Source: Gammaproteobacteria bacterium (GTDB lineage Bacteria > Pseudomonadota > Gammaproteobacteria > Pseudomonadales > IMCC2047). From it: a DNA stretch of 64,000 nt. A program made the position numbers and the translations under genes. Below the pieces are notes generated by a model. That model saw nothing but the letters and a program-made list of their open reading frames with translations. It did not search any database and was not told the origin of the DNA. The stretch lies in NCBI GenBank assembly GCA_021773395.1, contig JAJFKB010000015.1, positions 1 to 64,000 on the forward strand, given 5' to 3'. Positions 47,124-59,724 of the stretch are shown in pieces. How positions within the stretch are numbered: position 1 is the stretch's first letter; the number at the start of each line of letters is the position of its first letter.

Positions 47124-47137
47124 CGTGATTGTGGTTA

Positions 47138-47313
47138 GGGAACCTCTGAATAATTCCCTGATCCCTCTGTAAGTCCCGCAGGGTGAGTTCTGAAAGCTTC
47201 ATCTGCGGCGTTAGAAACTTAGCTAAGGCAATGAGCATTAGCGGCAGTTCCTGCCTTGCAGCTATAGCTTTCAGGTTTTCGCAGAGGCATTAAGGAATTA
47301 TTCAGAGGTTTCC
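47138..47313. mobile_element. MITE-like element with 20-bp terminal inverted repeats
   Basis: Ends at 47138-47157 and 47294-47313 are inverted repeats of GGRAACCTCTGAATAATTCC with one mismatch (17 bases perfect). The 176-bp element has no coding capacity. Inside, CTGAAAGCT and AGCTTTCAG are also inverted and CTCTG/CAGAG recur, so the RNA could fold extensively. Such ends resemble IS5/IS1182-type non-autonomous elements. I could not identify a clear target duplication (flanks TTA and TGG). Confidence 0.6.
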
Positions 47314-47449
47314 TGGATCAGGTGCAAGCGAGTGCTTGTATTCGCCTAAAGCATTGGTAGAATCACATTACTGAACTGGTTGCATAGTCGTATCTGTGCC
47401 GGTGCATTGATAGCCAAGAGTGGCAGAGTGTGACGATACAATAAAAATA

Positions 47450-49573
47450 ATGGTTCCAAACATGGTCGAGTGGATTCAGCGTTGGCGTTACCGTATAGAA
47501 AAGGGTAGTCCGCACCTTATTCTGCTGGTAGGACTGTTACTTTTTATTATCTTTGTCTCTGTAGTGGGTGGCTTCCTGGTGCATATTTCCGGCGTCGGGG
47601 GGGCTTTGCCGGAATCTATGTGGTGGGTGTTTCTGCGTATCAGTGATCCTGGCTATCTGGGAGATGATAGCACCGTCACCAGTGCATTTTTTGGTACTGT
47701 CTTTACCGTGATTGGAATGGTGGTCTTTATGGCCGGGCTGGTGGGAATATTGACCAGTTTAATCATGAGTAGCCTTAAAAAACTGCATGAAGGACGCTCA
47801 GCAGTAGTGTTTCGCAATCATGTGGTCGTTATTGGCTGGAATAATGAAATTTTCACCCTGATCAGTGAATTACTGACGGCTTGGGACGATACGGGTATTG
47901 CTATGCTGGCAGCCGAGCCCAAAGAAGTCGCTGAAGATGAGATTGAGCGGCGCGTCTATTCGCAGATCGGTCGAGCACATGACCGAAAGTTCAAGAACAA
48001 CCTTAAAACTCGAGTGGTCTATCGCAATGGCAGTTCTCTGGCGTTAAGAGATCTGGAGCGCGTCGGTGTACATAAGGCTCGTTATGTGATTATTCTCGCG
48101 GGAGAGCAGGAACGGGGGACGACCACTGATGTGCAGCAAATTCGAATTCTGCATGCCATCAATCAGCTGCGCAGTCATCATGATAACGTTGGAGATTTTA
48201 CCGTCATTGCTGAGTTGACCATGCAGCGACTGCGGGCACATGCCTTTTATGCTTTGAATATGAATCCGCTGGCTGATACCTGGGTGCGTTTAGGCGAGCA
48301 ACAAAAATTAGCACGAGGCGAGGAGAGTTTTTTACCACGCACAACACAGCAGCCCAATGATCAGGATATAACCGTGATCAATGGTGATCAGATTGTAAGT
48401 AGAGCTATAGTGCAGTGCGCCATTCAGCCTTGCTTGAGCAAAGTTTATAACGAGTTGCTTTCTTTTACAGGTAAGGAGCTCTTTTTATGGCGCCCCAATG
48501 ACGACTGGCAGCCGGTTTTTAAACAGGCGGCGACACTACCACCGGAACAGGTACCCTTGTTCCTTAATGCTCACCTGGACAAGGGTATGATTGTCGGTAT
48601 TCGTGACTCGGGTGCAGATTTCGGTGAGCTGTTTTTTAGGCCAAATGACTGGGTGGAAAATCTGCAGGGAAACGATCTGATTGTATTGGCTGACAAACAG
48701 GAATGGCAGAATCCCAGTCCCCAGCTAAGGAAGGAAATTAACATTGAACCGCGAGCTACGAACGGGGTTGCAGATTACATTGCGGAGTCATCGCAACCCT
48801 CAGAGCACGGTATTCTGATACTGGGATTTAACCGCAGATTAGGCGTGGTGTTAGAGCAACTTTCAGAATATTGTGAGCAGTATCCGGATACGCAGATGCG
48901 GTTGACTATGGTCGCGCCGCAGATCCCTGATGAATTTTATAAATTGGCTGAACAGTGGCCGGTAGTTGCCGATGCTCAGGAAAAGGGCAGGCTGATCAGT
49001 GCAGATTTTACGGACTGGAACGTGTTGGGGCCGGTGATTCGAAACTCCCCTCGCCGTAAGTCTATTATTCTGCTAACGGATGACTGTGCTCTGTCACTTT
49101 CGGACGGTTCGGTTGATGCCAGGGTGACACTGGCATTAGTAATGCTGAGAGCCTATCGCGGAGATGCAGCCTGGCAGAAGCATTTTGATGAATCGAATAT
49201 TGTCGCGGAAATTCTGGATCCACAAAATAAGTCGGTTATAGAGCGTGAGCAGCTGGCTAACGATATCATCGTGGGCAACGAATATGTGAGTCGATTTATA
49301 GCTCAGGTGACCAGTGATTTTCGTTTGGAAGAGCTGTTCCGCGAGCTGCTCGATTACGGCGACTATGAGCTATATGTAAAGCCGATCGAAAACTATCAAG
49401 TAAGTAAAAATGATCAATTCAGCGAAGTGACGAAACAGGCGGCAGCACAGGGAGAAATAGCGATCGGCTATCTGTTTTCCGAGCCGCAGGCAGGTGTTAA
49501 GATGGCATTGGCTCCCGATCTGATGCAACAGATGGATAACGCGGAACGTATCATCGTGATTGCAGAGAGCTAG
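47450..49573 (+). CDS. CASTOR/POLLUX-type ion channel protein
   Basis: About 707 residues. An N-terminal membrane helix (LILLVGLLLFIIFVSVVGGFLV), a pore-like segment WWVFLRISDPGYLGDD, a second helix (VFTVIGMVVFMAGLVGILTS), then two long cytoplasmic RCK/TrkA-N-like regions (first starts NHVVVIGWNNEIFTLISELL; second starts GILILGFNRRLGVVLEQL). The SDPG pore in place of GYG is typical of CASTOR/POLLUX proteins, which in plants are nuclear cation channels. Ion and ligand here are unknown. Starts GTG 47420, ATG 47450 and ATG 47462 all lack a good ribosome site. The MITE-like element lies upstream. Confidence 0.85.
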   Translation: MVPNMVEWIQRWRYRIEKGSPHLILLVGLLLFIIFVSVVGGFLVHISGVGGALPESMWWVFLRISDPGYLGDDSTVTSAFFGTVFTVIGMVVFMAGLVGILTSLIMSSLKKLHEGRSAVVFRNHVVVIGWNNEIFTLISELLTAWDDTGIAMLAAEPKEVAEDEIERRVYSQIGRAHDRKFKNNLKTRVVYRNGSSLALRDLERVGVHKARYVIILAGEQERGTTTDVQQIRILHAINQLRSHHDNVGDFTVIAELTMQRLRAHAFYALNMNPLADTWVRLGEQQKLARGEESFLPRTTQQPNDQDITVINGDQIVSRAIVQCAIQPCLSKVYNELLSFTGKELFLWRPNDDWQPVFKQAATLPPEQVPLFLNAHLDKGMIVGIRDSGADFGELFFRPNDWVENLQGNDLIVLADKQEWQNPSPQLRKEINIEPRATNGVADYIAESSQPSEHGILILGFNRRLGVVLEQLSEYCEQYPDTQMRLTMVAPQIPDEFYKLAEQWPVVADAQEKGRLISADFTDWNVLGPVIRNSPRRKSIILLTDDCALSLSDGSVDARVTLALVMLRAYRGDAAWQKHFDESNIVAEILDPQNKSVIEREQLANDIIVGNEYVSRFIAQVTSDFRLEELFRELLDYGDYELYVKPIENYQVSKNDQFSEVTKQAAAQGEIAIGYLFSEPQAGVKMALAPDLMQQMDNAERIIVIAES

Positions 49574-49604
49574 CGGATAAAATTCCCCCCATGAGCGCTT
49601 TAGT

Positions 49605-50348
49605 ATGATTGCAAACAGGACTTTCAAGCAACGGCTTAAATGCCTGGTGGAGCGGGATGATACACCAGCAGGGCGGCGCTTTGAGTTCTTTATTATGGGG
49701 CTTATCTTTTGCTCACTGGTGGCCTTTTCAATTGAAACATTACCCAACCTGTCTGGGCTCGGTCTTGAGCTACTTAACTATTTTGAAATTATTGTAATCG
49801 CGGTATTTACGCTGGAGTATCTGGCAAGAATTTATGTCGCTGACCGACGCTTGAAGTTCATCTTCAGTTTCTTTGGGATGATTGATTTATTGGCAATTAT
49901 TCCCTTTTATTTGACTTTGGGAATGGACTTGAGGTCGGTTCGAACCTTACGCCTCTTCCGACTGGTGTTACTGGTTAAACTGGTCCGCTATTCGGAATCT
50001 CTGGAGCGCTTTCGTCGTGCCTTTGTTATTGCCAAGGAAGATTTGGCATTGTTTTTCGCCGGTGCAATCGTGCTTCTATATCTGTCAGCGATAGGCATCT
50101 ATCTATTTGAAAATAACGCACAACCGGAGGTGTTTTCCTCAGTGTTCCATAGCCTTTGGTGGGCTTTGTCGACACTAACTACAGTGGGGTATGGCGATGT
50201 TTATCCCATCACTGTGGGCGGGAAAATATTTACTTTTTTTGTGCTTATGCTGGGGCTGGGTATTGTTGCCGTGCCAACGGGTTTAATTTCCTCCGCTCTG
50301 GTTAAAGCCAGACAGGAAGACAGAGAACGGCAGGCTGAAACTGATTGA
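49605..50348 (+). CDS. Voltage-gated potassium channel
   Basis: 247 residues with six membrane segments. The S4 voltage sensor carries Arg at about 110, 113, 116 and 119 plus Lys/Arg beyond (RSVRTLRLFRLVLLVK), and the selectivity filter TTVGYGD lies at 192-198. This is the prokaryotic Kv layout without a cyclic-nucleotide-binding domain. It lets K+ cross the inner membrane on depolarisation. It begins 31 bases after the CASTOR/POLLUX-like gene. Confidence 0.93.
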   Translation: MIANRTFKQRLKCLVERDDTPAGRRFEFFIMGLIFCSLVAFSIETLPNLSGLGLELLNYFEIIVIAVFTLEYLARIYVADRRLKFIFSFFGMIDLLAIIPFYLTLGMDLRSVRTLRLFRLVLLVKLVRYSESLERFRRAFVIAKEDLALFFAGAIVLLYLSAIGIYLFENNAQPEVFSSVFHSLWWALSTLTTVGYGDVYPITVGGKIFTFFVLMLGLGIVAVPTGLISSALVKARQEDRERQAETD

Positions 50349-50387
50349 TAGTATCAGTCATAACTCTTTTTAAGCAAGGGGTGAAAA

Positions 50388-50975
50388 TTGGATAACGAAC
50401 AGGATACAAACAGAGTAAATGAACCCTTTGCCTCGGTTGAGCCACACGAAAGCATTGATGTGGTGCTGCAAACAATTCAGGAAAGTCAGGTGCAGTTCAG
50501 CACGATGGCCGATGAAAAGGCCAACATCATGATTACCGTCTGTTCTATTTTGCTAACGCTAGCGGTGGGCAAACTGGAGGAGAGGGTGCTGGTAATGCCG
50601 ATCGTTGTATTCTGTGTTTTCGTCGCGCCGGCACTGATATTTGCTATTCTGACGGTGATCCCCTCATCCGGGAACTCTAAAGTTAAACCAAAAGATATCA
50701 TTAAACGTCGTAGCGCCTTTAATCCTTTTTTCTTTATGCATTTCTCCTTGTTACCGATTGATATGTTTGAGGAGGAATTTGAAAAAGCGATTGGCAGCAC
50801 GAAGAATCTGTATCGTAATGTGGCTCGAGACATTTATAATCAGGGCGTGGTATTAAGAGTTAAGAAGTACCGCTATTTACGTTGGAGTTATTTGGCACTG
50901 CTATGCGGTGTGATCTTGAGCTTGGCTGTTTTCCTGATTCAGCTGGTGCTTGGCCAGGTGGCCTGGGCGTCCTGA
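50388..50975 (+). CDS. Pycsar-effector-like membrane protein (DUF5706)
   Basis: 195 residues. A helical N-terminus (ESIDVVLQTIQESQVQFST) leads to the ADEKANIMITVCSILLTLA segment, which I recognise from the DUF5706/PycTM family (AD.KAN pattern before the first helix). Two more hydrophobic stretches (VLVMPIVVFCVFVAPALIFAIL; YLALLCGVILSLAVFLIQLV) follow. PycTM effectors open or disrupt the membrane on binding cyclic pyrimidine nucleotides during phage infection. No adjacent PycC cyclase is present. Start is TTG 50388 with AAGGGGTG upstream. Forty bases after the K+ channel. Confidence 0.65.
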   Translation: MDNEQDTNRVNEPFASVEPHESIDVVLQTIQESQVQFSTMADEKANIMITVCSILLTLAVGKLEERVLVMPIVVFCVFVAPALIFAILTVIPSSGNSKVKPKDIIKRRSAFNPFFFMHFSLLPIDMFEEEFEKAIGSTKNLYRNVARDIYNQGVVLRVKKYRYLRWSYLALLCGVILSLAVFLIQLVLGQVAWAS

Positions 50976-51084
50976 GTTTTGGGGAACAGGTAATTAATAA
51001 AACTAAATTAAGAACGGTTAGGGGAAGATGATGGAGCTATTTGCGAGTAAGGATTTACGTAATGTGATGCGAAGAGGTATTAAT

Positions 51085-51633
51085 ATGCACAGACAGATAA
51101 AAGGGTGGATGGTGGGGATGCTTGCTTGTTCGCTGCTCGCCGTCGGTGCCTGCTCGACACTACCAACCGCAGATGGTGATGCACCTCAGAGTAAAGGGGC
51201 CTCAAAGTCATCGGGCAGTCCGAAAGCCATGGTTAGGGACGGGTTTGATGCGTATGGCAATCGTAAATATGAAGAGGCAATAACACTTTTTAAAAACACA
51301 CAAAAGAATGCCAGCAAAGGCTCCAGCGCTTATGATAAAGCATTGGTTGGCGAAATTCTGATTCGCTTAAGTGCCGACAGAAGATGGCGGAATTTGGATC
51401 GTGCGGAGCAGATTTTAGCGGAATTAAGGTCAGGCAGTTCAAAAAGAGCGAGCGGAGCTGATGAGAGCCAACTTTTAATGAACGCCCTTAATAATCTGGT
51501 AATTGCGGAAAAAGATAATGCTGAGTTGCGCAGGAAATTAGACGCTTCCTACGCTCAGTTATCCAGGTTGGAGAAGGAAAAGGTAAATCTCAACAATGCA
51601 TTGAATAAACTACGCAGTTTAACGCTCGACTAG
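51085..51633 (+). CDS. TPR-like lipoprotein
   Basis: 182 residues. Lipoprotein signal ending at the lipobox AVGACS, a Ser/Lys-rich linker, then a TPR-like helical region (MVRDGFDAYGNRKYEEAITLFKN and the DKALVGEILIRL helix) and a C-terminal coiled coil (KDNAELRRKLDASYAQLSRL). Start set at 51085, seven bases after AGAGG; an ATG at 51028 would put 19 non-signal residues in front. It may scaffold a periplasmic or outer-membrane complex. Last gene of the plus-strand channel cluster. Confidence 0.7.
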   Translation: MHRQIKGWMVGMLACSLLAVGACSTLPTADGDAPQSKGASKSSGSPKAMVRDGFDAYGNRKYEEAITLFKNTQKNASKGSSAYDKALVGEILIRLSADRRWRNLDRAEQILAELRSGSSKRASGADESQLLMNALNNLVIAEKDNAELRRKLDASYAQLSRLEKEKVNLNNALNKLRSLTLD

Positions 51634-51941: not shown

Positions 51942-53213
51942 TCATTTAGAAAAGCTTGCGATATCTTTTACAATCGCGAAGTCCTCTTCCAGAATCATCG
52001 CTTTCTCAGAACGCTTTAATGCCAGTCTGGAGTGATATTTTGCCGCGTTGCTTAATGCTTTATCGTCAATTAGAGCCAGCGAACGCAAGGCCTTCTGTAA
52101 GCGCACCGATACTTCAATCGAGTCAGCGCCATCGCGTGCAATCGCTGTAAACGCATCATCGAACATATCTCGCACAGAAATCTCCGGTATCTCAACCCGA
52201 TCATACTCAGGTGTTGTAGAGTCCTCCCTGTTGCTTGGTGCACTCCACATAACAAACAATCGGACGAGTGTTCCGATCACATTAATTGCTGTACCTTGAT
52301 CATTTACTGCTGGTGATAAAGCGCGACTTGCAATTTCAGACAAAACAACCAGGCCGAACCTGGGGTCTTCGTCAAAAAGACGATCGTGTCCGATTATGAA
52401 CGATTGAACTATCCTTTCACACTCCGTTGTGGTTTGTTGATGGGGTTGACCGATTAAATACGCTAGCGGCCGCCCCGGTGTAACAAAAGTTCCTGGTAAT
52501 GCAGAGATCATCAGCTTTGCTTGAACTTTTTCGACACATGCCTGAAGCCCCCCAATGTCGATATTTTGCACATAACCTATGACCTCTGAAAATATTGGTA
52601 TTCCATCTGATGTCTGGGAGCTTACAGGAATGCTGTGCACCGACAGAGTATCTCTTTTTCGTTTTAATGCTTCTTCAGTAGCGTGTTCAACTTTCTTTAT
52701 GGTTTCTCCGAGACGCCCCAGGCGTGCAATGCTATCTACCCATCGTACGAAAGTAAGTATTACCAGGGCAAAAACAATGATGGTAAGAATGAATATAGTA
52801 AAGTGCCCGGCCACCTCAAAATAATTATTATTTACTGCCGTTAGAGCGACAATGCTAAAAATGAAAGCGCCAATAAAAGTCGAAAGTGCATTCTGCGATA
52901 CATCATCGGCAACGACTAATGGAAATGAACGTGGTGTTGCTGAATTACTGGTAGAGGCGTAGGCCGAGACCATGGAGGTGACCGCAAGTGTAGCAATGAC
53001 CAGCATGCTGGAGGCCATAACTGAAAGTAGACTTTCTACTGATTCAACGGTGATGGTGGGCAGAATCTGTGCTACCTGTGTGCTATCTGCGATCCCGGCA
53101 GCCAGGACTGTGCTGACCGACATTATACAAACGACTAATGGTCTCACCCAAAGGCGTTCCCGTAGCCTTTTAATAAAAAACCAAAACCGGTCAGCTGAGA
53201 GGAGTGGGTGCAT
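51942..53213 (-). CDS. DUF2254 membrane protein
   Basis: 423 residues. Four membrane helices lie in the first 175 residues (VRPLVVCIMSVSTVLAAG, VMASSMLVIATLAVTSMVS, FIGAFIFSIVALTAV, HFTIFILTIIVFALVILTF). Soluble part includes IPIFSEVIGYVQNIDIGGL and LSEIASRALSPAVNDQGTA, the family's most conserved block. DUF2254 has no settled function; its architecture is channel-like. Convergent with the plus-strand channel cluster. Confidence 0.85.
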   Translation of the reverse strand: MHPLLSADRFWFFIKRLRERLWVRPLVVCIMSVSTVLAAGIADSTQVAQILPTITVESVESLLSVMASSMLVIATLAVTSMVSAYASTSNSATPRSFPLVVADDVSQNALSTFIGAFIFSIVALTAVNNNYFEVAGHFTIFILTIIVFALVILTFVRWVDSIARLGRLGETIKKVEHATEEALKRKRDTLSVHSIPVSSQTSDGIPIFSEVIGYVQNIDIGGLQACVEKVQAKLMISALPGTFVTPGRPLAYLIGQPHQQTTTECERIVQSFIIGHDRLFDEDPRFGLVVLSEIASRALSPAVNDQGTAINVIGTLVRLFVMWSAPSNREDSTTPEYDRVEIPEISVRDMFDDAFTAIARDGADSIEVSVRLQKALRSLALIDDKALSNAAKYHSRLALKRSEKAMILEEDFAIVKDIASFSK

Positions 53214-53299: not shown

Positions 53300-55564
53300 C
53301 TAATCCGGTATGTTATGCTCTTCAAAAAATCTTGTTAGCTGGTCGGCCAAGTAGTCCTCGTTTGCTTCGGAATTGACCAGTAGCAGAGGCGTTTCTTTGT
53401 TGGCATCGGAGCGTTTCGCTCCTTCCATAAATAGTGCTACGCCATTCGGATCAGAATGTTCACCGATGAGAATGAGCTTGATTTCATCTTCCTTGATGAG
53501 CAGCTCTGCTTTATCAAGGTCGGCGGTTCTGATAATGTCCCATTCACTTTCGGTGAGCGCTTCTTTAATGGCTTCGCCCAGCGCCGAAGCGTCTTCTGTG
53601 ACAAGTAGCAGTTTTCCAGCACTGCGCTCGGGTAGGAAGCTCTTAACCGTTTTGGTTAGCTTTTCTTTATCTATCGGCTTGATCAGATAATCAGACGCGC
53701 CCAGTGACAAGCCTAATTCTCGCTCGCTTAGCATGGATTGCATGATGACTGGAATAGCGGAAGTATCCGGATCTTGTTTTAGCTGTTCCAGTACCTGCCA
53801 GCCATCCATTTCTGGCATCAGTACATCGAGCACAATAATTTCAGGATTATATTCTTTGGCTAACTCGATTCCCTTTTTACCGGACTCAGCGGTGATGACC
53901 GAATAGTTTTTCTTGCTCAGAATGCGTTTTGCCAGCTCACGGGAGGTCGCGTCATCGTCGATTACCAGAATGCATGCGCTGCCTTTGGATATTGTTTCTG
54001 TCTGCCCAGACAGTTGCTGGCCCTCCTTGCTATCCGATTGTGCCAGGGACTGGTTGGGACAGGTAAATGTGAAGCAGGTGCCGGCGCCCGGTGTGCTTTT
54101 GACAGTAATGTCGCCATGCATTAATAGTGCAAATTTCTTGCAGATGGACAACCCCAGTCCTGTGCCGCCAAACTGTCGTGTGGTAGAGGAGTCAGCCTGG
54201 GTGAACTCATCAAAAATTCTGCCCAGTTGTTCCTCCGTCATGCCGATCCCGTTATCAATCACCGACAGGTTGAGCGTATCCTCGCTTTCAGTTTGCGTTC
54301 TTGCCAGGGTGATTTCAATCACTCCATCACTGGTGAATTTGCAGGCATTGCTTAGCAGGTTGAGTAATATTTGGCGGAACTTGGTTACGTCTGTATTAAA
54401 TTCCGCATTTTCCGCTTCGAAATTGAATTTGATCTGGTTGTTTTGTTTCTCCGCAAGCGGATGCACGGTATGCAATACTTCCTCTACGCTGCTTTTCAGG
54501 TTGATTCTCTCAAAATAGAGGGTCATTTTTCCCGATTCAATTTTGGAGATATCCAGTACATCGTTGATGAGAGACAGTAGATGCTTGCCTGCTTCGAGGA
54601 TTTTGGCTAAATCCGGCTGCAAATCCTGTACTTCGATATCGTCATCTTCTTCAATCTCTTCCATCAGCATTTCACTATAGCCAATAATCGCATTCATCGG
54701 TGTTCTAAGCTCATGGCTCATGTTGGCTAAAAAGCTACTTTTCGCCAGATTGGCCTCATCAGCACGCTGTTTTTCCTCCTCCACTTTTTTCATGGTGCTT
54801 TGCAGCGTTGCTGCCATCCCGTTAAACGCCTCCGCCAATCCACCGAGTTCATCGTTGCTGAATTTTGGTATCTGATACTCCAAATGGCCATGGCTCCATT
54901 TGTCCGTTCCCTCAAGTAAAGCGGACAGGGCGCGTTTTGTGTAATGAAACAGGTGGTAGGCCAGTGCGATGGTAAAAATCAACGAGCTGAGGAATACGAT
55001 CAGGGTCACTCGGTTGGTCAGTGATTCTACTTTGTCTATTTCGGTATTCAGTGCCTGTGATTTATCCGTTAATAATTCCGTGTCTGACTTGAGCGCGTCC
55101 ACAGCCACATTGAAATCTGAACGGTAACTGCGAATGGGTTTGTGCTCTTCGGTGGCTGTTTTTTCTTTGCCGATAACAATAGCTTCTTGCCAGCGGTTGA
55201 GTAAATGCTCGGACTCTTTTGTGCCTTGCATTTTCTTCAGTAAATCAGGATCGACTCTTTGTGAGATTTTAACCAGCCGGGCTTTTTGCCGAGTTATGCT
55301 CTCCAATAGGTCAGCACGCTCCTGATCGGTCAATGTGGACTGATTTCGAGTTTCAGCCAAGGCTTCAATGACCAACAGTTTTTTGTGTATCTTTCTAAGT
55401 TGCTGTATGTGAGAGTTGATCATAAATTGAGAGCGAGTAACCGATTGAAGCTGTACAACTATCTCTTTTCGCACCCCGTTGGACCAGGAGAAAACCAGAA
55501 TCGAACAAAGAAAGAAAAGCAGTATGATGATGAGTGAAAAGGCTATCCGCTTACTTAGGCTCAT
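53300..55564 (-). CDS. Hybrid sensor histidine kinase with intact and degenerate receiver
   Basis: 754 residues. Membrane helices at about 8-28 and 186-207 enclose a helical periplasmic sensor; HAMP about 208-262; HisKA with His 284 (NMSHELRTPMNAIIGYSE); HATPase about 395-505 (N box around Asn 406, DNGIGM, GGTGLGLSI). Receiver one (about 531-645) has Asp 580 in IIVLDVLMPEMDGW. A second receiver-like domain (651-754) lacks the phospho-acceptor: the strand LILIGEHSDP has no Asp at that place and no conserved Lys. Last gene of an operon with the single-domain regulator (30 bases upstream). Confidence 0.93.
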   Translation of the reverse strand: MSLSKRIAFSLIIILLFFLCSILVFSWSNGVRKEIVVQLQSVTRSQFMINSHIQQLRKIHKKLLVIEALAETRNQSTLTDQERADLLESITRQKARLVKISQRVDPDLLKKMQGTKESEHLLNRWQEAIVIGKEKTATEEHKPIRSYRSDFNVAVDALKSDTELLTDKSQALNTEIDKVESLTNRVTLIVFLSSLIFTIALAYHLFHYTKRALSALLEGTDKWSHGHLEYQIPKFSNDELGGLAEAFNGMAATLQSTMKKVEEEKQRADEANLAKSSFLANMSHELRTPMNAIIGYSEMLMEEIEEDDDIEVQDLQPDLAKILEAGKHLLSLINDVLDISKIESGKMTLYFERINLKSSVEEVLHTVHPLAEKQNNQIKFNFEAENAEFNTDVTKFRQILLNLLSNACKFTSDGVIEITLARTQTESEDTLNLSVIDNGIGMTEEQLGRIFDEFTQADSSTTRQFGGTGLGLSICKKFALLMHGDITVKSTPGAGTCFTFTCPNQSLAQSDSKEGQQLSGQTETISKGSACILVIDDDATSRELAKRILSKKNYSVITAESGKKGIELAKEYNPEIIVLDVLMPEMDGWQVLEQLKQDPDTSAIPVIMQSMLSERELGLSLGASDYLIKPIDKEKLTKTVKSFLPERSAGKLLLVTEDASALGEAIKEALTESEWDIIRTADLDKAELLIKEDEIKLILIGEHSDPNGVALFMEGAKRSDANKETPLLLVNSEANEDYLADQLTRFFEEHNIPD

Positions 55565-55594: not shown

Positions 55595-55960
55595 TTAATT
55601 GTTGAGTAGGATATCTATCTTCATTAGCAGGCGCTTTAAATCAATGGGCTTGGTGTCATAGTCATCGCAACCGGCTTCCAGCGCCTTGGCGCGATCCGAT
55701 TCCATGGCGTGTGCTGTAAGCGCAATGATTTTGATAGATTGCGTAGCGACGTTACCCTTAAGTTCCCTGGCAGCCGTCCAGCCATCCTTTACCGGCAGGC
55801 TCATGTCCAATAGTATGATGTCGGGGTTCCATGAGGATGCCTTATCGATACCTTCCTGTCCGTCCACCGCCAGCTCCACCTCAAAGCCTTTGCGTTGTAA
55901 TCTGCGGCTGAGCATGTCTCTATTCATTTCGTTATCTTCTACCACTAAAACTCTAGGCAT
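55595..55960 (-). CDS. Single-domain response regulator
   Basis: 121 residues, CheY-like only: acidic pocket VVEDNEMNRDML, Asp 52 in ILLDMSLPVKDGW, Thr in ALTAHAM and Lys in DTKPID. No output domain. Its start overlaps the end of the cyclase gene by eight bases, and the kinase follows 30 bases later, so it likely shuttles phosphate between the hybrid kinase and the receiver-cyclase. Confidence 0.93.
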   Translation of the reverse strand: MPRVLVVEDNEMNRDMLSRRLQRKGFEVELAVDGQEGIDKASSWNPDIILLDMSLPVKDGWTAARELKGNVATQSIKIIALTAHAMESDRAKALEAGCDDYDTKPIDLKRLLMKIDILLNN

Positions 55961-57944
55961 TGACTTTCCCTCTTAGATCATTCTGATTCGGCGTGTGAGT
56001 GAGTGATTGAATATGCTTGCGAATAGGCTCCGGGCACGAAGTTATGCTGGCTATATAGTTATAATGCTGCTTCAATCTGGGCCCTTTCGCCGTAATTTTT
56101 GCGTAAATCTGTTCGTTTCCCCATGCAGTATTATCGCTATGAGAAATACTGAGGTTGGTGAAGCGCTGTAATGGTTCGGAACACCTGAGATGCAGGCTCT
56201 GTTGCGATACCGCTGTAATTAAAGCGGATAAGGCATCTTTATCGATAGCTTTGCCGGATAGTTCGGCTAATGAAACTGGTAATCCCGGATCAATAGGCAA
56301 CATGCTCTCAGCAGTTTCTTCGAGCGTTATGCAGTAAGGTTCTGCCAAGCCCAGAATATCATGAATCTTGATGGGATCCTTGACACCCTTGGCGCTGACT
56401 TCAGCGGTTTCTCCCAGAACAACCTCAGCACCACAGTCTTGAATTGTGTATTCTGATGCCAGTATCTGGCCGCCGATGGTAAAGGACTCTATACGGGAAG
56501 TCAGATTTACATGATGTCCCACTATGCCATATTTAGAACGGTCAATAGACCCAATATTTCCAACAACAACCTCTCCAGTATTCAGGCCAATGCCCATTTG
56601 GATGGGCGGCAATCCCATTTGCTGGTTTTTAGCATTGACGGTCTTCATGGCGCGTTGCATTTCGATCGCGCATAGCAGAGCGCGATCAGCATCATCTTCA
56701 CGTTTTATCGGCGCGCCGAAAATAGCAAGTATTGCATCTCCCAGAAACTCGTCAATGGTTCCTCCATGCTTGAGTAGTAAAGGGGTCATGACGCCAAAAT
56801 AATTATTCAATAAGGTAACACAGTCTACCGGATCCAGCGATTGGCTGAGTGCTGTGAAACCGCGAATATCGGTCATCATCACAGTGACTTTCTGTTTTCC
56901 ACCACCCAGCTGAAGGCCATCATCATCTTCGAGAATGGTTTTTACGATATCGTCGGAGAGGTAACGGCCAAATACCTTGCGGATGAAAGCGTAACTTTTT
57001 TCCAGCTCCCCCTGATATTCTTTTTCCTTGTCATGCCAGGCTTTTCGCTCCAGACAGGCTGTCACACGGGCTTTCAGCAGCATCGGGTTTACCGGCTTGA
57101 TCAGGATATCGAACGCACCGACTTCAATACAGCGAGCCGCGCCTTCCTTGTCCTGCAGCCCCGTGACAACGATCACGGGGATCGCGCGCAGTTTTTCATC
57201 TTTACGCATTACCTGCAGCACTTCAAAGCCATTCATGTCGCTCATTAATAAGTCGAGTAACACCAGATCAGGGCTCTGTTCTGCCATCATTTCCAGTGCC
57301 TGTCTGCCCGAAGACGCGGTTCTTGTTTGGTGTCCTTGCTTGCGTAGTTGGTGCGATAAAAGGTTTAGATTACTCTCATTGTCATCAACGATAAGCAGAT
57401 TTCCGCTAATGGACTCTTTCGCTTCGCTGTTGTCGCGTTCAAAACTATCAAATACCGCACTTAAATCGCTGGTAAGACTCTTGCTCGATTGGCTGGGTGT
57501 CGAGTCGGTTGTGGAGAAAACTTGATCCAACTGCAGTAAAATCCGATTTGACTCAGCGATAGTCTGTTCGAGGTAGGTAATGCCCTCTACGTCATTCGGC
57601 GCGACTTCGGTTAAATCTTCCAGGAGCATTTCGGAATAACCTGCGACAACGCCAATAGCATTGCGCAAATCATGGACAAAGATAGCTCGTTGCTCATCCC
57701 GAGTGGCTTGAGACGGGTAGTTCATTTCGCCTTCAAGCATTGCATTGACCAGGTTACGTGTGTCGTAGGATGCCTGTTCAATACGCATTAAATCGTCGAG
57801 ACAGTCAAAGTCTTTACGGTCAGCTAAATGTTCCTTGAGTAATTCAGTATGGCCTGCGATGGACAATATTGGCGCTAACAACTCTTGTCTTAGGACATCA
57901 ACTCGGGCGTTTTCAATACGGTTATTTTCAGGTAAATCGGTCAT
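55953..57944 (-). CDS. Receiver-coupled class III nucleotidyl cyclase with HisKA-like N-terminus
   Basis: 663 residues. Residues 85-145 look like a kinase dimerisation helix pair with His 91 (HDLRNAIGVVAGYSEMLLE), but no ATPase domain follows. Receiver about 182-300 with Asp 231 (LVLLDLLMSDMNGF). Class III cyclase about 352-535: metal-binding Asp 359 (MMTDIRGFTALS) and Asp 403 (EFLGDAILAIFGAP), transition-state Asn 480 and Arg 484 (HVNLTSRIES). The position that selects adenine (Lys) holds Glu 399, and the partner position (KYGIVG) holds Gly, so ATP cannot be assumed. The last 120 residues are unassigned. First gene of the three-gene operon. Confidence 0.9.
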   Translation of the reverse strand: MTDLPENNRIENARVDVLRQELLAPILSIAGHTELLKEHLADRKDFDCLDDLMRIEQASYDTRNLVNAMLEGEMNYPSQATRDEQRAIFVHDLRNAIGVVAGYSEMLLEDLTEVAPNDVEGITYLEQTIAESNRILLQLDQVFSTTDSTPSQSSKSLTSDLSAVFDSFERDNSEAKESISGNLLIVDDNESNLNLLSHQLRKQGHQTRTASSGRQALEMMAEQSPDLVLLDLLMSDMNGFEVLQVMRKDEKLRAIPVIVVTGLQDKEGAARCIEVGAFDILIKPVNPMLLKARVTACLERKAWHDKEKEYQGELEKSYAFIRKVFGRYLSDDIVKTILEDDDGLQLGGGKQKVTVMMTDIRGFTALSQSLDPVDCVTLLNNYFGVMTPLLLKHGGTIDEFLGDAILAIFGAPIKREDDADRALLCAIEMQRAMKTVNAKNQQMGLPPIQMGIGLNTGEVVVGNIGSIDRSKYGIVGHHVNLTSRIESFTIGGQILASEYTIQDCGAEVVLGETAEVSAKGVKDPIKIHDILGLAEPYCITLEETAESMLPIDPGLPVSLAELSGKAIDKDALSALITAVSQQSLHLRCSEPLQRFTNLSISHSDNTAWGNEQIYAKITAKGPRLKQHYNYIASITSCPEPIRKHIQSLTHTPNQNDLRGKVNA

Positions 57945-57986: not shown

Positions 57987-58313
57987 TTAGATAAAATAGC
58001 AGTATGCTAACTTGCAAATTAGATGTAGTGCCTGATCCTGGTGGAAGTTAATCCAGTTTTCACATTTGCTGAAATCAATAATGCTGTGTAGCAGGGTTTC
58101 GATGGCTCCCAATACAGCGCTACCGGTAACCAGATAGACCGCACCGCCGTGGATCAGGGCATGTGCCAGTAGCCAGTAATACCAGGGGGGAAAGCCCTTG
58201 CCGCTGGTATTGTGAATGTCCGCATGGCGACTTTTAGCGATCGCCATGACCTGCCTTTGCAAGGCGAAGTCAGATAGGGCGTGGCCCACGATGAGTTGAA
58301 ATAGTAAAGCCAT
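57987..58313 (-). CDS. DUF3307 membrane protein
   Basis: 108 residues with about three hydrophobic stretches. LIVGHALSDFALQ at the start and the LLAHALIHGGAVYLV and HSIIDFSKCENW segments, rich in His/Asp, match DUF3307. Function unknown. Its upstream region holds a tandem 12-bp repeat. It precedes the cyclase operon by about 40 bases on the same strand, so it may be its first gene. Confidence 0.75.
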   Translation of the reverse strand: MALLFQLIVGHALSDFALQRQVMAIAKSRHADIHNTSGKGFPPWYYWLLAHALIHGGAVYLVTGSAVLGAIETLLHSIIDFSKCENWINFHQDQALHLICKLAYCYFI

Positions 58314-58569: not shown

Positions 58570-59724
58570 TTAGTTGGTAGTGTCAATCAGTTCCGATAAT
58601 GGTTTTGGGTGACTTATGCCAAAGCTCTGGCAATAGTCGACGCCAATCTCCTGTATTTTCTCTTGAATGGCACTGTTCTCAACAAACTCCGCGATGGTCT
58701 TTTTACCCATTACATGAGCGATTTCGTTAATGGATTTAACTAGCGCAAAATCTGTAGGATTCGTCAATATATCCTGAACAAACAAGCCATCAATTTTCAA
58801 ATGGTCGACGGGAAGGTTTTTAAGGTAGGCAAATGAAGATAATCCACTGCCAAAATCTTCCAGCGAGAAACTGCAGCCGAGCGTTTTAAAGGTGTTAACG
58901 AATGATCGCGCACTGCCGATATTGACGATGGCTGCTGTTTCGGTGATTTCAAAACAAATTTTGTGGGTGGGTAATTCGCTTTGACGCAGCTCTTCCATTA
59001 GAAAAGAAGAGAATCCGGTATCGCAAAGTGACAGCCCGGAAAGGTTGATTGAGCACATTTTCAGTTGTTCCAGGTGGCTCACATTTTGTTGCAGCATTTT
59101 GCAAGTCCTGGAAATGACCCGGCGATCGATTTCACAAGATAAACGATATCGCTCGGCGGCGGGCAGAAAGATCCCTGGTGCGATGAGATTTCCTTTTTCA
59201 TCGAGCATTCTAAGCAGTATTTCATAGTGCAGTCCGCCACTACTGCTACGGGTGTCAGTTTCGACAATGGGTTGATAGTAGAGTTGGAACAGGTCTTGTT
59301 CCAATGCTTTTGGTAATCTTGATGCCCACTGTATTTTACCGTGACGTCTAGTGAACTCTTCGTCTAGTTGGCTGTATACATGAAGCTTGTTGCCACCCTG
59401 TTCCTTTGCCATATAGCACGCGGTATCTGCAGCACTTAATATTTCTGTTACGTTTTGGCATTCCTTGTACACCTCAACGAGCCCCGTGCTCACTCCAATA
59501 CGGAAATTACGTTCCTCCCACTCAAAAGTGAAATTGGAGATGGCGGTTATCAGATCATTAGCAATTCGCTTGGCTTTATCCAATGAGCAGTGTTCAATCA
59601 ATAGACCGAACTCATCGCCGCCAAGCCTTGCAAGCGTATCTCGTGTTCTTATATGAGCTCGCAGCAAGTGGCCGAGTTCGCGCATTAGCTGGTCACCGGC
59701 TACATGGCCGCTGGTATCATTAAT
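58570..59724 (-). pseudogene. 5'-truncated GGDEF-EAL protein gene
   Basis: The EAL domain (about the last 250 residues) is complete: EILLR, INLSGLSL, EITETAAI, LEDFGSGLSSFAYL and LKIDGLFV. Before it only the second half of a GGDEF domain remains: INDTSGHVAGDQL then RLGGDEFGLL. In frame before INDTSGH comes a TAA at 59725-59727, so the first half of GGDEF and any sensor are lost. The first usable ATG is at 59685, giving 371 residues with only a weak ribosome site. The EAL metal motif reads LEDFG rather than LDDFG. A shortened phosphodiesterase could still be made, but cyclase activity cannot. Confidence 0.75.

Follow-up and report, generated by a model that had tools for sequence, protein, structure and literature searches.

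The Pycsar anti-phage system pairs a cyclase, PycC, with the membrane effector PycTM, which disrupts membrane integrity once activated, according to the accessible part of PMC11224242. Here we describe a PycTM family member in a 64,000-nucleotide stretch of a Gammaproteobacteria bacterium genome (GenBank assembly GCA_021773395.1, contig JAJFKB010000015.1, positions 1 to 64,000; hereafter the window) and its relation to a two-component cyclase block on its right. The PycTM gene (50388..50975, plus strand, TTG start, 195 residues) lies near a gene for a class III cyclase with HisKA-like and REC domains (55953..57944, minus strand), so that, as in Pycsar, a PycTM family member has a class III cyclase nearby. 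Unlike PycC, the window cyclase combines a two-component architecture with guanylate-type residues and does not adjoin PycTM, and the window PycTM scores 47 bits with PADLOC PDLC02364 versus 101 bits for a Pycsar control. We tentatively read this PycTM as the membrane receptor of the block, probably for cyclic GMP (cGMP), encoded here co-directionally with two ion channels.

Other described systems share parts of this arrangement. Among solved structures, the best match to the catalytic domain, after a chimera that itself contains Cya2 (PMC5995499), is Cya2 of Synechocystis (PDB 2w01, 1.3e-64). The window cyclase has the Glu-Gly pair, metal aspartates and Asn-Arg of Cya2, but its HisKA-like and REC domains differ from the CHASE2 sensor that the same paper gives for Cya2, and the tyrosine of Cya2's NLTYR is serine. 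In Xanthomonas, another gammaproteobacterium, the guanylate cyclase gene XC_0250 is likewise linked to a cyclic-nucleotide receptor gene, XC_0249; unlike the window cyclase, XC_0250 comes with tetratricopeptide repeats (TPRs) and lacks REC, and its partner receptor is of the cNMP-GGDEF type (PMC3770947). Panoptes (OptS/OptE) also places a membrane effector with two transmembrane segments under nucleotide control, but OptE has a beta-barrel sensor and an mCpol partner (PMC12657218, in its accessible sections), whereas the window combines PycTM with a class III cyclase. The plant CASTOR/POLLUX channels share with one window channel the Castor_Poll_mid and RCK-type domains and an acidic residue in the filter-like stretch (PMC6697748, as far as its text is available), but the window channel is bacterial.

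The family assignment of the PycTM rests on PF18967 (3.4e-19, 69.7 bits against a curated cut-off of 27.2) and on a PADLOC call (7.7e-13), which bears out the first-pass annotation of the 195-residue protein as DUF5706; no paper naming DUF5706 was found in the open-licence literature. Its predicted structure is all-helical (mean predicted local distance difference test score 82). In this 3.8-Mb genome (98.89% complete), the single PycTM found and the single PF00211 cyclase lie 5.0 kb apart. The nearest PycTM relative (54%) occurs in a metagenome-assembled genome of the Lysobacterales (G609, locus L051), 1.8 kb from an orthologous cyclase in the same block. The chance expectation within 10 kb is 0.005 for the window genome (G000) and 0.013 for G609. 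Across 30 PycTM genomes, a PF00211 cyclase lies within 10 kb of PycTM in five (G000, G609, G366, G487 and G452), where 0.64 would be expected from cyclase numbers and genome sizes with contig ends ignored; the cyclases of G366 and G487 carry Lys, an adenylate-type residue, and a guanylate-type block stands beside PycTM in G000 and G609 only.

PF00211 searches overlook divergent cyclases, having missed the PycCs near PycTM in G039, G515 and G607 that a custom cyclase profile and PADLOC detected. The custom profile, which is more sensitive, adds L078, L079 and L080 to the loci with a cyclase near PycTM. By this profile, only 7 of the 52 PycTM loci read had a cyclase. Four of these (L077-L080) are clear Pycsar pairs by PADLOC: their PycC matches reach 7e-147 or better, and the two genes are no more than 1 kb apart. 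Applied to the window, it found no second cyclase in the 64,000 nucleotides; that the window cyclase is the only one of its genome stands for PF00211 alone.

The block itself is conserved. All on the minus strand, a hybrid histidine kinase (53300..55564; HAMP, HisKA, HATPase and REC domains), a single-domain response regulator (55595..55960), the cyclase and a DUF3307 membrane protein (57987..58313) follow one another, and a DUF2254 membrane protein (51942..53213, minus strand; PF10011, 2.8e-91) is encoded between the kinase and a plus-strand lipoprotein gene (51028, start probably 51085, to 51633). L051 holds orthologs of the lipoprotein (30%), kinase (46%), regulator (72%), HisKA-REC-cyclase (53%) and DUF3307 protein (65%), with PycTM 147 bases beyond DUF3307; the latter adjoins the cyclase in L135-L138 as well. 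Of 200 genomes in the order of G609, 14 match the cyclase at E 1e-60, and their loci carry kinase and cyclase in 13 cases, the regulator too in 12 and a called lipoprotein in 9, L147 lacking a proper block. In the window's own order, 52 of 255 genomes match it, counting that of the window; 20 of the 51 other loci were fetched, and all have cyclase and regulator and 19 the kinase. The lipoprotein, whose gene is usually convergent with the kinase gene, belongs to this block, because its relatives accompany the block and share one cysteine, the lipobox Cys, which is invariant across 16 chosen relatives drawn from both orders. The TPR part of the first-pass description, a TPR lipoprotein, is weak: Pfam, PADLOC and NCBIfam gave no significant family, the best match being BamD-like at 0.0039. 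No REC-cyclase two-component cGMP block of this kind appeared among the titles listed in an open-licence literature search.

The residues of the cyclase bear on its probable product. Its base-recognition sites carry Glu and Gly as in Cya2, whose E-G pair is described in PMC4215837; all 34 block cyclases compared retain the Glu, and the second site is Gly or Ala. At the positions of the CTP-specific residues F100, R142 and Q144 of EaPycC (given in the sections of PMC11224242 at hand), the window cyclase has M, E and L, whereas the control PycC of L077 has F, R and M; the alignment was made against EaPycC, with BcPycC (Y50, D94, R97) left out. The most likely product, judged from these residues, is cGMP, with a uridylate-type activity as an unlikely alternative. 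The first-pass annotation had found no PycC adjoining PycTM, which agrees with a single cyclase in the window, 5 kb off and lacking the EaPycC residues; its guess of a nucleotide link we judge right, although it had not tied this cyclase to the PycTM.

Many relatives have cyclic-nucleotide-binding proteins of other kinds next to the block. In the order of G609, a POPDC-like membrane protein of 235 residues with a cNMP domain is encoded within 1 kb of the cyclase in 4 of the 14 loci, a cNMP-patatin occurs in 6, and PycTM stands beside the block in one (L051), where it occupies the position of the POPDC-like gene. In the window, PycTM is past the lipoprotein gene, on the same flank as the patatin of L140 and L142. 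In the window's order, a CRP-type regulator is divergent from the cyclase in 10 of 20 loci; one such gene (L208), hidden by the open reading frame (ORF) caller, was recovered by tblastn. All 9 CRPs and all 6 patatins compared retain the cassette arginine. Across 14 genomes, the POPDC-like protein was found in four at 68-100% and in five as weak matches only, and it was not found in G000 or G609. PycTM is present in 1 of the 13 block genomes searched (G609) and absent from the other 12; G645, the genome of L147 and outside those 13, has a PycTM on another contig. Separately, L140, L144, L145 and L146 encode a cNMP-patatin phospholipase with HlyD, an FtsX-type permease and a GAF-domain ABC ATPase beside the REC-cyclase and kinase.

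The proposed receptor role would work as follows. The hybrid kinase in the membrane, for which the lipoprotein is a probable envelope partner, would phosphorylate the small regulator and the REC domain of the cyclase, and the phosphorylated cyclase would then make a cyclic nucleotide, most likely cGMP. Nucleotide binding would let PycTM assemble and alter membrane permeability. As its gene runs in the same direction as those of a CASTOR-like cation channel and a voltage-gated potassium (Kv) channel, with which it is probably co-transcribed, the expected output would be a controlled shift of ion flux or membrane potential and not phage-triggered suicide. This reading is favoured by the closeness of PycTM and block in two genomes, the pairing of these two PycTMs in a tree, the Cya2-type residues of the cyclase and the cyclic-nucleotide-binding neighbours of related blocks, all of them observed, along with gene content and homology; the relay of phosphate, the identity of the product, reception by PycTM, altered permeability and co-transcription are inferred.

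The two channels belong to a run of four plus-strand genes at 47450..51633 that the first-pass annotation had proposed as a dedicated, nucleotide-gated ion-flux module; both channels, as well as the coordinates and gaps, were borne out. The CASTOR/POLLUX-like channel (47420 with a GTG start or 47450 with ATG, to 49573) has both PF06241 Castor_Poll_mid (8.3e-13, 48.7 bits, cut-off 26.7) and PF22614 Slo-like_RCK (4e-8, 33.4 bits, cut-off 24) above cut-off, and its filter-like stretch reads S-D-P-G, with an acidic residue and no TVGYG. The Kv channel (49605..50348) combines PF00520 Ion_trans (4.1e-37) and PF07885 (2.4e-16) with a TTVGYGD filter and an S4-like arginine repeat. PycTM and the lipoprotein complete the run, the gaps being 31, 39 and then 52 or 109 bases, depending on the lipoprotein start.

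That these four genes form an ion-flux module independent of the cyclase block is improbable. Short gaps, a shared strand and the company of two channels and a membrane protein speak for it, but the order does not recur. The 52 PycTM loci were read in sets of 8, 24 and 20, taken from overlapping genome samples that include eight named relatives on GTDB contigs; many loci end at contig ends, and tblastn was run as a check on the ORF caller, which favours the longest frames and can conceal a short gene beneath an antisense one. None of the 52 holds a CASTOR relative. Kv-like genes near PycTM are weak and differently arranged: one within 3 kb in L224, and one in L073 at 7e-4 that was not recovered at 1e-4 in the tblastn check. 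In the window's order, 15 of 245 genomes pass the CASTOR cut-off, the window included, and the 14 other CASTOR loci hold neither a Kv nor a PycTM relative. The block loci that we read, in turn, showed no relative of DUF2254 or of either channel. As far as tested, the four-gene order is particular to this genome, and the conserved neighbourhood that a search for it turned up was the cyclase block. What had been taken for one cluster is, by gene content, the seam of two units, with the lipoprotein at home in the two-component block on the right. Promoter and terminator signals are near shuffled levels and neither support nor exclude co-transcription.

A Pycsar anti-phage system in which the REC-cyclase acts as PycC is equally improbable. 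The cyclase matches PADLOC PycC at 1.5e-21, and a PycTM is present with a cyclase nearby; however, the control pairs L077-L080 match at 7e-147 or better with PycC within 1 kb, whereas the window cyclase lies 5 kb off on the other strand, with M, E and L against F, R and Q in EaPycC. Nor do the flanking genes examined look defence-like, and a PycTM search of phage and plasmid collections returned nothing. The plasmids yielded six CASTOR records, the best at 28.5% identity.

The serious competitor, which is nearly as likely as a receptor role, is that PycTM is an orphan, brought along with the horizontally acquired block or set down next to it, and unresponsive to the nucleotide that the block makes. 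In both the cyclase and the kinase trees, which are midpoint-rooted, the window groups as sister to L051 and L135-L138 (100/98 and 99/98) and not with its own order, pointing to transfer; the simplest reading is that the block was acquired by transfer, perhaps with PycTM, and one such event could have carried both without a functional tie. The family occurs in 87 of 388 genomes of the order of G609, where no cyclase was detected within about 6 kb of PycTM in any of 20 loci (L214-L233; blast and cyclase profile, some stretches being cut by contig ends), and 4 of the 7 cyclase-bearing PycTM loci are clear Pycsar. In the PycTM tree, the sequences from G000 and G609 group together (100/99). The PycTMs of L077-L080 were not part of that tree, so their distance rests on PF18967 scores, 45-49 bits versus 70 for the window PycTM, which thus appears closer to a mostly orphan branch. 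Its greater resemblance to orphan PycTMs than to those of the Pycsar pairs speaks for the orphan explanation and a little against both the receptor reading and canonical Pycsar. Against an orphan stand the PycTM-cyclase distances in G000 and G609, which are unlikely by chance, and the fact that PycTM flanks the block on one side in G000 and on the other in G609, so that the linkage outlasted a rearrangement.

Several observations count against PycTM as the block's receptor. Its link to the block is seen in two genomes only, on opposite sides of the block, and in the window it lies on the other strand, four genes from the cyclase. It is unlike the PycTMs of genuine Pycsar pairs and lacks any recognised cyclic-nucleotide-binding domain, and a search for solved structures of its relatives found none. 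The comparison with other receptors is uneven as well: the cNMP-patatins are 4-7 kb away, next to transporter genes; none of the four POPDC-like proteins retains the cassette arginine, so that nucleotide binding there is unsure; and such neighbours were not seen in 3 of the 14 loci from the order of G609, of which two lie on short contigs, or in 10 of 20 from the window's order (L194-L202 and L204).

The wider surroundings offer little that resembles defence. Genes examined at 31-46 kb and 58-64 kb encode RapA, a GGDEF-EAL sensor, molybdopterin oxidoreductase subunits, FMN reductase, DeaD, DinB, an ABC exporter, TPMT and an ANKH-like protein; PADLOC matches among them are generic helicases or ATPases, or the methyltransferase, and they lend no support to a defence island. 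The GGDEF-EAL gene (58570-59685, minus strand) may be truncated, as its GGDEF match covers the profile only from position 60 of 161 onwards. A 178-base element at 47137-47314, between dinB and the CASTOR gene, resembles a miniature inverted-repeat transposable element; it has 33-base terminal inverted repeats (88% complementary), and its ends occur once in the window.

The family at large varies in occurrence and architecture. A protein search with the window PycTM matched its own genome alone among 57 genomes, and the family was found in 23 of 369 genomes of the class. Orphan PycTMs look common in the order of G609, given the share of its genomes with a PycTM and the lack of a detected cyclase nearby at all 20 loci sampled there. 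In L060, L063, L074 and L075, PycTM forms the N-terminal part of proteins of about 550 residues with a C-terminal DUF3616 or phytase-like stretch, an architecture that, to our knowledge, has not been met before. In L080 (5000-10500), a clear Pycsar PycC is accompanied by a PycTM-like gene and, on the opposite strand, a PycTIR gene, so that this locus may hold both effectors.

It is possible, if rather doubtful, that some PycTMs are cGMP membrane receptors in two-component signalling and not pyrimidine-triggered suicide effectors, interchangeable with POPDC-like, patatin-type and CRP-type proteins beside one HisKA-REC guanylate cyclase block and working here with CASTOR-like and potassium channels. 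The window offers a simple test case, with one PycTM and one PF00211 cyclase found in the genome. If PycTM is tied to a guanylate-type cyclase, the family can switch ligand and leave defence, and gammaproteobacteria would possess a cyclic-nucleotide block whose receptor is exchanged between a membrane protein, a phospholipase and a transcription factor.

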